Position numbers and translations under genes: made by a program. A DNA stretch of 64,000 nucleotides from Gallionellaceae bacterium (GTDB lineage Bacteria > Pseudomonadota > Gammaproteobacteria > Burkholderiales > Thiobacillaceae). Shown here piece by piece: positions 6,153 to 9,199 of this stretch (within the stretch, counting starts at the first letter, position 1; each line of letters starts with the position of its first letter). A model generated the notes under the pieces. That model was not told the origin of the DNA. It ran no database searches and was given only the letters and a program-made list of their open reading frames with translations. The DNA is taken from the NCBI GenBank assembly GCA_028714735.1, contig JAQTLU010000008.1:1-64000 (forward strand). Direction: 5' to 3'.

Positions 6153-7529
6153 TCAGAACGGTAGCACGGCGTCCGGCGCGGCCGCCAGGATGACCCGGCG
6201 GAAGGCGTCCTGGATGCGCGCCAGGGCGGCAGCGTTGTCGGCCTCGAAGCGCAGGACGACGACCGGGGTGGTGTTGGACGGCCGCATCAGGCCGAAGCCG
6301 TCCGGGTATTCGACCCGCAGGCCGTCCAGGGTGATGACCTCGCTGGCGCCCTCGAAGCGGGCGGTCTCCTTCAGTTGCGCAATCAGGCGATGCGGCTCGC
6401 CTTCCGGCATGCGGATGTGCAGTTCGGGGGTGTTCACGCTGTCCGGCAGACCATGCAGGGTGGCGTCGATATCCGTCTGTTTCGACAGGTATTCAAGCAG
6501 GCGGGCGCCGGCATAGAGGCCGTCGTCGAAGCCGTACCAGCGTTCCTTGAAGAAGACGTGGCCGCTCATTTCGCCGGCCAGCAGGGCGCCGGTCTCCTGC
6601 ATGCGTGCCTTGATCAGCGAGTGGCCGGTCTTCCAGAGCATGGGTTCGCCGCCGTGCTTGCGTATCCACGGGTACAGGTTGCGGGTGGATTTGATGTCGA
6701 AGATGATCAGCGCGCCGGGGTTGCGGCTGAGTACATCGGCGGCGTACAGCATCAGTTGCCGGTCCGGGTAGATGATCCGGCCATCCCTGGCGACCACGCC
6801 CAGGCGGTCGCCGTCGCCGTCGAAGGCCAGGCCGATCTCGGCGTCGCCGGCCTGGAGCCGGGCGATCAGGTCGGCCAGGTTGTTCGGCTCGGACGGGTCC
6901 GGGTGGTGGTTGGGGAAATCGCCGTCGACCTCGCAGTACATCTCCTCGACCTGGCAGCCCATGGCCCGGTACAGAGCCGGGGCGTAGGCGCCGGCGACGC
7001 CGTTGCCGGCATCGACGATGATCTTCATCGGCCGGGCCAGCCGGACGTCGCCGGTGATGCGGGCAAGGTAATCGGGAGCGATGTCGTGCTGCCGGTAGGC
7101 GCCGGCGCCCCTGGCCAGCTCGCCGGCCTCGATGCGCCGGCGCAAGGCCTGGATGGCCTCGCCGGACAGAGTTTCCCCGGCCAGCACCATCTTGAGGCCG
7201 TTGTAGTCGGGCGGGTTATGCGAGCCGGTGACCATGACCGCGCAGTCGGTGCCCAGATGGTGGGCGGCGAAGTAGGTCATCGGGGTGGCGACCAGGCCGA
7301 GGTCGACCACGTCGACGCCCGCCGCCTGGATGCCGCGCGCCAGGGCGGCGGCCAGGTCCGGCCCGGACAGGCGGCCGTCGCGGCCGATGGCGATCTCCTT
7401 CTGGCCGCGGGCGAGGGCCTCCGTGCCCAGTGCCTGGCCCACCTGCTCGACGATCCCGGGCGTCAGCGTCCTGCCGACGATGCCGCGGATGTCGTAGGCC
7501 TTGAAGATCTCTGCGGGAAGCTTGGCCAT
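6153..7529 (-). CDS. Phosphomannomutase/phosphoglucomutase
   Basis: This is an alpha-D-phosphohexomutase of the AlgC/ManB type (458 residues) that interconverts hexose 1- and 6-phosphates for exopolysaccharide and LPS sugar supply. The active phosphoserine is S103 in TGSHNPPDYNG, the Mg2+ loop is DGDGDRLGV, the sugar loop is GEMSGHVFF and the C-terminal phosphate loop is RPSNTTPV. The frame is open to 7661, but the upstream 44 codons run through a transcription terminator hairpin. I therefore place the start at 7529 (MAKLPAEIFKAYDIRG, the family N-terminus). It heads the minus-strand cluster with corA, purE and purK. Confidence 0.94.
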   Translation of the reverse strand: MAKLPAEIFKAYDIRGIVGRTLTPGIVEQVGQALGTEALARGQKEIAIGRDGRLSGPDLAAALARGIQAAGVDVVDLGLVATPMTYFAAHHLGTDCAVMVTGSHNPPDYNGLKMVLAGETLSGEAIQALRRRIEAGELARGAGAYRQHDIAPDYLARITGDVRLARPMKIIVDAGNGVAGAYAPALYRAMGCQVEEMYCEVDGDFPNHHPDPSEPNNLADLIARLQAGDAEIGLAFDGDGDRLGVVARDGRIIYPDRQLMLYAADVLSRNPGALIIFDIKSTRNLYPWIRKHGGEPMLWKTGHSLIKARMQETGALLAGEMSGHVFFKERWYGFDDGLYAGARLLEYLSKQTDIDATLHGLPDSVNTPELHIRMPEGEPHRLIAQLKETARFEGASEVITLDGLRVEYPDGFGLMRPSNTTPVVVLRFEADNAAALARIQDAFRRVILAAAPDAVLPF

Positions 7530-7588
7530 GTTCGCCCCTGTGATAACGGGGCCATTATCCGGGCTTTGCCTGCACCCGGCCAGCAGGC

Positions 7589-7653
7589 AAAAAAAAACGG
7601 CACTGGATACCAGTGCCGTGTAGAAAACCGCCGTTGCGGCGGTCAGGGAGGTA
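7589..7653 (-). ncRNA. Candidate small RNA (or attenuated leader) with two hairpins and a rho-independent terminator
   Basis: Read on the minus strand, a sigma-70-like promoter is followed by about 65 nt of RNA. The 5' single-stranded part contains ACCUCCCUGA. Hairpin 1 (7627-7643) has the stem ACCGCC/GGCGGT with a 5-nt loop. A short UUUUCUAC linker leads to hairpin 2 (7597-7619), whose perfect 10-bp stem ACGGCACTGG/CCAGTGCCGT has a 3-nt loop, and then nine U (7589-7597). It is either a free-standing sRNA whose CCUCCC could pair with Shine-Dalgarno sequences, or an attenuated leader of the phosphomannomutase gene starting 60 nt further on. No homology search was possible, so the class is inferred from architecture. 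Confidence 0.65.
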
Positions 7654-7659
7654 GATTCC

Positions 7660-7687
7660 ATTATGCCATAAAAGATATACCTGTCCA
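7660..7687 (-). promoter_or_regulatory. Sigma-70-type promoter for the candidate sRNA / mutase operon
   Basis: On the minus strand, TGGACA (7682-7687) and CATAAT (7660-7665) are separated by 16 nt, close to the TTGACA/TATAAT consensus. Transcription would begin around 7652-7653, immediately before the CCUCCC segment. A GGTATAT run lies in the spacer. Confidence 0.6.
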
Positions 7688-7745
7688 GTAAAACTTATAC
7701 TTTCGATATAGGCCTGATATCGGCATGGTCATTACCCGGGACGGT

Positions 7746-7759
7746 TTGATCAATAACAA
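7746..7759 (+). promoter_or_regulatory. FNR/ANR-type box upstream of hemN
   Basis: TTGATCAATAACAA differs from the FNR consensus TTGAT-N4-ATCAA at one position. It lies 70 nt upstream of the hemN start. Anaerobic activation of hemN by FNR/ANR is established in gamma- and betaproteobacteria. Its centre is about -41 from a start near 7793 and about -52 from the better promoter at 7769-7798. Confidence 0.55.
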
Positions 7760-7768
7760 GGCTTTACC

Positions 7769-7798
7769 TTGCCTAGACCGGATACGCCTGCCTACAAT
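7769..7798 (+). promoter_or_regulatory. Probable hemN promoter
   Basis: TTGCCT (7769-7774) and TACAAT (7793-7798) are spaced by 18 nt, with the expected start near 7805. An alternative weak -10, GATACG at 7781-7786, would place the upstream FNR-like box in the class II activator position. Confidence 0.45.
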
Positions 7799-7828
7799 CG
7801 AGCCAGTCTCTCTTGAAGTGTCCTTAAT

Positions 7829-9199
7829 ATGACCGCTCTTACCACGCTGCTGGAAAAGTACAGCAAGCCAGGCCCGCGCTATACCTCCTATCCCACGGCG
7901 CCCTATTTCCACACCGAGTTCACCGAGGCGGACTGGCGCGCCGAGCTGACCGCCTCGCAGGATCCCGAGCGCGGCCTGTCGCTGTATTTTCACATTCCGT
8001 TCTGCGACACGCTCTGCTACTACTGCGGTTGCAACATGGTCGCCACGGGTGATTACAACAAGGCCTACCAGTACCTGGATTTCCTGGACAAGGAGATGGC
8101 CCAGGTCGCCGCCTTGACCGATTCGTCGCGTCGGGTGAAGCAGCTGCACTTCGGCGGCGGCACGCCGACCTTCCTGCGGCCGCAGGACATCCGCCGCCTG
8201 ATGGGCCTGATCCGCAACCGCTTCACCATCGCCGACGATGCCGAGATGGGCTGTGAGACCGATCCGCGCGAACTGACCCGGGAGCACCTGGTGGCGTTGC
8301 GCGAGACCGGCTTCAACCGTTTGTCCATCGGCGTGCAGGACCTCGACGACCGGGTCCAGAAGTCGGTCAACCGGGTGCAGCCCGAGGGCATGATCAAGGA
8401 GGTCTACGGCTGGGCGCGCGATCTGGGTTTCGCCAGCATCAACATGGACCTGATCGTCGGCCTGCCGCATCAAACCGTGGACAGCTTCGCCCGCACCCTG
8501 GACAAGGTGGTGACCTGGTCGCCCGACCGGCTGGCGGTGTTCGGCTACGCCCATGTGCCCTGGATGAAGAAGCACCAGAAGCTGATCCATGAAAAGGATC
8601 TGCCCAATTTCGCCACCCGGCTGGATCTGCAACAGCTGATCCACGACAAGCTGGGTGCGGCCGGCTATGTCAACATCGGCCTCGATCACTTCGCCAAGGC
8701 CGACGACGAGATCGTCAAGGCCCAGAACAGCAAGACCCTGTGGCGCAATTTCCAGGGCTATACCACGCACAAGGACTGCGACATCTACGCCTTCGGGGTA
8801 TCCAGCATCAGCCAGACGCCGGATACCTATGTGCAGAACGACAAGAATTTGAAGTCCTACCAGGAACGGGTCGCCGAGGGCCACCTGCCGGTCGAGCGCG
8901 GCCTGCGCCTGACCCGCGACGACCAGATCCGCCGTGACGCCATCACCAAGGTCATGTGCGATCTGGAACTGGACAAGGCGAATTTCTCAGCGGCCTGGGG
9001 CATCGACTTCGACAGCTACTTCGCCGACGCATTGGTCGATCTGCAGCCTTTGGCCGAGGATGGCCTGGTGCGCGTCGATGCCCGCTACGTCGCGGTCACC
9101 GAACTGGGCCGCCTGTTCCTGCGCAACATCGCCATGTGCTTCGATGCCTACCTGAAGCTGGCCTCGGAGTCGGGCCCGCGTTATTCGCGCACGGCCTGA
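7829..9199 (+). CDS. hemN: Oxygen-independent coproporphyrinogen III oxidase
   Basis: HemN is a radical-SAM enzyme that decarboxylates coproporphyrinogen III to protoporphyrinogen IX without oxygen, in haem synthesis. The 456 residues match the true HemN length rather than the shorter HemW. The 4Fe-4S-binding cysteines are C59, C63 and C66, with the extra C68 typical of HemN (FCDTLCYYCGC). GGGTPTFL and the GVQDLDDRVQKSVNR segment are also present. It is monocistronic: an FNR-like box lies upstream and a strong bidirectional terminator follows the stop by about 17 nt. Confidence 0.96.
   Translation: MTALTTLLEKYSKPGPRYTSYPTAPYFHTEFTEADWRAELTASQDPERGLSLYFHIPFCDTLCYYCGCNMVATGDYNKAYQYLDFLDKEMAQVAALTDSSRRVKQLHFGGGTPTFLRPQDIRRLMGLIRNRFTIADDAEMGCETDPRELTREHLVALRETGFNRLSIGVQDLDDRVQKSVNRVQPEGMIKEVYGWARDLGFASINMDLIVGLPHQTVDSFARTLDKVVTWSPDRLAVFGYAHVPWMKKHQKLIHEKDLPNFATRLDLQQLIHDKLGAAGYVNIGLDHFAKADDEIVKAQNSKTLWRNFQGYTTHKDCDIYAFGVSSISQTPDTYVQNDKNLKSYQERVAEGHLPVERGLRLTRDDQIRRDAITKVMCDLELDKANFSAAWGIDFDSYFADALVDLQPLAEDGLVRVDARYVAVTELGRLFLRNIAMCFDAYLKLASESGPRYSRTA

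Follow-up and report, generated by a model that had tools for sequence, protein, structure and literature searches.

Small RNA Element Upstream of algC

The short intergenic stretch between the divergent genes hemN and algC in the window (the whole 64,000-nucleotide piece of Gallionellaceae bacterium contig JAQTLU010000008.1 that was analysed) raises the question of whether it encodes a small RNA of its own or a leader of the genes downstream. The initial annotation had named both options: a terminated RNA of about 65 nt or, in case of read-through, a leader controlling the phosphomannomutase, corA, purE and purK genes. The downstream genes are indeed those named, the mutase being identified by its Pfam domains (Table 1). 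Promoter, ACCUCCCUG, hairpin 1, a U-rich linker, a 10-bp terminator and a U tract follow one another on the minus strand, so that the predicted RNA with its promoter, CCUCCC segment, U-rich linker and terminator was borne out by the sequence, at a length of about 64 nt.

Table 1. Predicted features of the hemN–algC region of the window.
Feature	Position	Strand	Remarks
algC, phosphomannomutase/phosphoglucomutase	6153..7529	minus	downstream neighbour; Pfam PGM_PMM I–IV
GATAAT, candidate separate algC −10 box	7554..7559	minus	behind the sRNA terminator; no good −35 in the window
Terminator U tract	7589..7596	minus	possible Hfq contact; T run in all aligned copies
Small RNA, ~64 nt	7589..7652	minus	A7652 through the end of the U tract; based on R2 score, fold z and homology start
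Intrinsic terminator stem, 10 pairs	7597..7619	minus	loop TAT
Hairpin 1, 8 pairs, apical GCAAY	7626..7644	minus	98–100% of cells paired
5' segment ACCUCCCUG, putative anti-Shine-Dalgarno seed	7644..7652	minus	last G doubles as closing base of hairpin 1
Extended −10 element (TGG)CATAAT	7660..7665	minus	7 nt before A7652; CATAAT identical in L001–L008
−35 element TGGACA	7682..7687	minus	TGGACA in 6/7 same-genus loci; TAGACA in the seventh and in genus g4
Conserved element TATATCGAAAGTATAA	7695..7710	minus	upstream of −35; possible activator site
hemN, oxygen-independent coproporphyrinogen III oxidase	7829..9199	plus	divergent neighbour; TIGR00538, 588 bits (cut-off 325)

Hairpin 1, initially described as a 6-bp stem, consists of 8 pairs formed by the arms GACCGCCG/CGGCGGUU around a CAA loop. 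The second hairpin was described accurately as a perfect 10-bp stem followed by nine U: it is followed by 8 T, or 9 if the paired one is included. Folding of a 66-nt RNA gave −30.7 kcal/mol, as compared to −13.3 ± 2.6 kcal/mol for shuffled sequences (z = −6.7), and none of the 200 shuffles was equally stable. In this fold, ACCUCCCU at the 5' end is left unpaired. The window copy scores 87.6 bits with the covariance model R2 described below, and is itself one of the 38 copies from which the model was built.

The near-consensus promoter TGGACA-N16-CATAAT was found as reported; it agrees with the consensus at 10 of 12 positions and has a TG one base ahead of the −10 hexamer. Two promoter-like sites are present in the 1.8-kb region, as against 0.3 ± 0.6 per shuffle. 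Upstream of the −35 element, a sequence resembling TATATCGAAAGTATAA occurs in loci L001–L008 and in the paralogous locus L044, and the genus of the window has the element TATATCnAAAGTwwnA in common at this position. Genome-wide, the motif TATAWCNAAAGTWWNA had 8 matches, hardly above the 4 of the reversed control, and defined no clear regulon. Between hemN and the small RNA (7743–7761), there is also a TTGTT-N4-ATCAA sequence, one mismatch away from an FNR-type box, which probably concerns hemN.

Distribution and Covariation

A DNA search of 61 genomes detected the element in 27, one of which (L027) looks like a chance match within a coding sequence. In most family members, the homology begins at about query position 149, where the RNA is predicted to start. 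Scanning named genomes with a sequence pattern yielded 47 contigs, including assemblies of Thiobacillus, Parasulfuritortus, Hydrogenophilales and Thiobacillaceae. The covariance model R2, built from an alignment (A2) of 38 distinct copies, had matches at E ≤ 0.001 in 51 of the 117 Thiobacillaceae genomes; three genomes, which belong to genus g6, have weak scores (28–34 bits), and strong scores were obtained for 48 genomes representing 9 of the 12 genera. Outside the family, seven genomes of the order sample had weak matches (28–36 bits), and no match to the RNA was found in the plasmids searched.

Among the 38 distinct core copies, ACCUCCCUG is invariant, though for some of them it was part of the pattern by which they were collected. 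In the same set, 99.2% of the stem cells pair and 10 of the 17 pairs have changed on both sides. The covariation score was reached by none of 500 shuffles, and the signal was destroyed when the pairing partners were slid against each other. Compensatory changes affect 8 of the 9 counted terminator pairs in the core set and 9 of 9 in the paralogs; hairpin 1 has double changes in 6 of its 8 pairs among the paralogs. The collecting pattern fixed parts of hairpin 1; since it allowed each of the variable positions to differ on its own, the double changes there were not forced by the way the sequences had been collected. When 32 members including paralogs were considered, double changes were seen in 15 of the 17 pairs, with a score of 0.650 versus 0.173 for shuffles, in an alignment fitted to the model and hence favouring the structure. 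While the stems vary, two parts of the family remain constant: the 5' end reads CCUCCCUG, as it also does in most of the paralogs that the covariance model detected, and the loop reads GCAAY or differs little from it. Thus, the core set shows no variation in CCUCCC, and both stems have been maintained through compensatory changes, as the initial annotation had expected of a genuine RNA; the exposed CCUCCC, invariant and unpaired in the fold, also retains its proposed role as a putative anti-Shine-Dalgarno seed.

The same data bear on two further readings. An open reading frame that starts at ATG 7661, looks lipoprotein-like and runs in frame through algC (7661–6153) might encode a leader peptide or extend AlgC at its N terminus. 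L004 has lost this ATG (CATAATTG), the frame stops ahead of algC in L002, and the changes in the stems preserve pairing, which makes a coding role extremely improbable. It is just as hard to believe that the element is a functionless, untranscribed remnant of a degenerate promoter and terminator, given that it is conserved in nine genera, that its covariation is strict and that the promoter boxes are kept in register.

Promoter, RNA element, structure and distribution are all supported by sequence evidence, and it is almost certain that the 64-nt stretch ahead of algC specifies a small regulatory RNA common to most Thiobacillaceae genera. No paper on sRNAs of Thiobacillus was found in the literature library searched, and post-transcriptional control seems to have received almost no attention in chemolithoautotrophic sulfur oxidisers; the interest of this sRNA family lies in its being conserved, short, easily deleted and spread over most genera of the Thiobacillaceae.

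Small RNA Gene or Leader of algC

The gene hemN adjoins the small RNA in nearly all of the core loci, and hemN–sRNA–algC is the usual order; therefore, the reading as an attenuator or leader, in which a regulated terminator and read-through transcription would control algC–corA–purE–purK, needed testing. Such a conserved order is expected of a leader, and, in the stretch examined around hemN, genomes that lack the RNA also lack this arrangement. Several observations speak against it. In most hemN–algC loci, a hexamer of the NATAAT/TACAAT type (GATAAT, TATAAT or TACAAT) lies 2–50 nt behind the terminator, so that a −10-like box separates the terminator from algC in most relatives. The RNA is not always positioned before algC: in L011, a convergent gene comes next and no algC lies downstream, and in L013 a cytochrome-c-like gene takes the place of algC, these algC-less cases occurring in two genera. 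Paralogs sit at unrelated sites, the terminator stem pairs with itself in 98–99% of cells, and the folds contain no alternative antiterminator pairing. Sharing of a transcript with algC was judged indirectly, by the −10-like boxes. Taken together, the −10-like boxes, the algC-less loci and the paralogs at unrelated sites disfavour the read-through leader that the initial annotation had offered as its second option, and we consider it unlikely.

The preferred reading is that an sRNA gene in its own right lies between hemN and algC and that its product would pair in trans with Shine-Dalgarno regions, to which we assign a probability of roughly 0.83.

Comparison with Known RNAs

Scored against Rfam, the window has no match at or above a family's gathering score. 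The closest known type is RF02278 ('Betaproteobacteria toxic small RNA'), which comprises bdhR1/ncS27 and its paralogs of Burkholderia cenocepacia and S17S of Bordetella pertussis, RNAs of about 60–70 nt with several copies in some genomes (PMC5688073, PMC7011215, PMC11722255). Both RF02278 and the window RNA have an unpaired 5' anti-Shine-Dalgarno segment, a short hairpin, a U-rich linker and an intrinsic terminator, and the model R3, a covariance model generalised over the paralogs, gives RF02278 copies 29–31 bits, which hints at common descent with the window RNA. Matches of R3 outside the family (about 30–41 bits) are mixed, including RF02278-like sequences, other CCUCCC hairpins and probably chance matches. 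Simple membership of the window RNA in RF02278 is, nevertheless, very unlikely. Against the gathering score of 50 bits, no match was obtained at 7400–7850 even at E ≤ 10, and the conserved segments differ, being UCUCCUCCAUCC in the window and ACCUCCCUGACC in RF02278. Moreover, a separate, full and single copy of RF02278 (L031; 57.4 bits) is located elsewhere in the same genome (G000:C14:70130–70191, minus strand). RF02278 is present in 108 of the 117 Thiobacillaceae genomes and coexists with the window RNA in most genomes having the latter. The window RNA is thus a separate gene, and the two families, coexisting as they do, can be compared as siblings.

Identity with S17S, suggested at first by a match in the literature, was likewise rejected: the S17-specific primer (sense strand TGGTGGATTTAGCCC...) and this genome's separate RF02278 copy placed S17S with the RF02278 type. 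S17S binds Hfq and represses a sigma54 activator; its pairing with ribosome-binding sites involves the 5' end (PMC11722255). RNase E generates S17S from a longer RNA of 190 nt; in the window copy, by contrast, a promoter directly adjoins the 5' end.

Two other registered sRNAs, which gave the highest scores below threshold, share parts of the layout. The Burkholderia sRNA ncS54 (RF02871) likewise has two hairpins and a U tract and aligns end to end, but it has another 5' segment and the score of 25.3 bits is below membership (gathering score, 43). The alphaproteobacterial suhB/MmgR (RF00519) also has a CCUCCCU segment and a terminator hairpin, but its CCUCCC lies between hairpins instead of at the 5' end, and the score is 22.8 bits against a gathering score of 41. 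The analogue alpha-r14/NfeR1 ('cuckoo RNA') resembles the window RNA in having an ultraconserved unpaired anti-Shine-Dalgarno motif, which is retained throughout its family, and freely differing stems; NfeR1 represses ntrB via its anti-Shine-Dalgarno motifs (PMC10746234). NfeR1 differs in having three hairpins, each with CCUCCUCCC, in its alphaproteobacterial origin and in its independence of Hfq, and homology is not implied.

Three features of trans-acting anti-Shine-Dalgarno sRNAs are present in the window RNA: a predicted promoter and intrinsic terminator of its own, a conserved unpaired CCUCC-type seed with covarying stems, and the lack of a tie to one downstream gene, although the core copy is mostly syntenic with algC. 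The best reading is that it represents an Rfam-unregistered family of anti-Shine-Dalgarno sRNAs, a known functional kind.

Paralogs and Promoter Exchange

Members of genus g3 have additional copies of the RNA elsewhere, next to unrelated neighbours; as many as six matches occur in a single genome. Across the family, 69 distinct upstream regions, sigma54 loci included, were examined; 23 of them have a −10-like hexamer exactly 6 or 7 nt ahead of the RNA, as compared to about 3 expected from shuffles. Based on this pile-up, the transcription start was placed at the A of ACCUCCC.

Sigma54-type −24/−12 elements with 11 or 12 of 13 matches were found in 19 of the 48 distinct core upstream regions, starting 49–86 nt before the RNA. 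These fall in genera g3, g8 and g11, along with a 10/13 site in g9; genera g1, g2, g4, g7 and g10, as well as a few g3 loci, have no such element. The hemN-linked copy stands behind a sigma54 promoter in four genera, the multi-copy genus included. At the sigma54 loci, the predicted start is about 22–60 nt upstream of ACCUCCC, so the seed would be 5'-terminal there only after processing. Upstream of paralogs L131, L132, L135 and L146, TTGTCATC...CGTCATC repeats that appear Pho-box-like by eye are followed by TACACT, and these direct repeats suggest phosphate-controlled copies.

As an unchanged RNA stands behind promoters of different types (sigma70, sigma54, Pho-like), a single silencing device has apparently been connected to several signals. 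The genus-wise exchange of sigma70 and sigma54 promoters before an almost unchanged RNA provides a clean natural case for the rewiring of an sRNA regulon. We tentatively propose, at somewhat less than even odds, that the copies are lineage-specific sibling anti-Shine-Dalgarno sRNAs, in which a fixed seed-plus-loop module has been duplicated and now stands behind unrelated controls (sigma70 with an activator, sigma54 and probably PhoB), each stress deploying one silencer on shared targets.

Proposed Mechanism and Targets

From the sequence and its conservation, we infer transcription, Hfq dependence and target repression as follows. RNA polymerase would start at about A7652 from the RNA's own sigma70 promoter and stop at the terminator, yielding an RNA of about 64 nt that displays an unpaired 5' ACCUCCCU and a GCAAY hairpin loop, with the U tract as the likely Hfq handle. 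This RNA would most likely pair in trans with GGGAGGU-like Shine-Dalgarno regions of several mRNAs, and the pairing would block ribosome binding, as demonstrated by others for S17S and NfeR1. The studies on these two RNAs support the proposed mechanism by analogy. The members of this sRNA family are probably Hfq-dependent repressors, although NfeR1 works without Hfq. The genome encodes two Hfq genes, at G000:C1:120638 (95.9 bits) and G000:C11:22121 (93.2 bits).

Exact AGGGAGGU sites 3–9 nt before an ATG number 36 in seven genomes of the same genus, versus 4 in the reversed control, an excess equal to what Shine-Dalgarno sites alone would yield. The short motif CCUCC fits a large number of ribosome-binding sites, and across the seven genomes no orthologous gene had a recurring AGGGAGGU-N3–9-ATG. 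The best-looking candidate, the gene of a SoeB/DsrO-like iron-sulfur subunit, was rejected: it has a good match in this genome, and the site is lost in most relatives.

Other Candidate RNAs

Elsewhere in the same genome (G000:C9:98396–98461, minus strand; L083, L227), a sigma54 promoter-like CTGGCACGGGCATTGCT precedes TCCTCCTTAG and a nine-T terminator hairpin, making this locus a candidate second anti-Shine-Dalgarno sRNA. In other members of the order (L275, L285, L286 and L287), R3 matches hairpins that have CCUCCCUG in the loop, e.g., CCTGCTTCACCTCCCTGAGCAGG; these apparently represent another type of RNA with the same motif.
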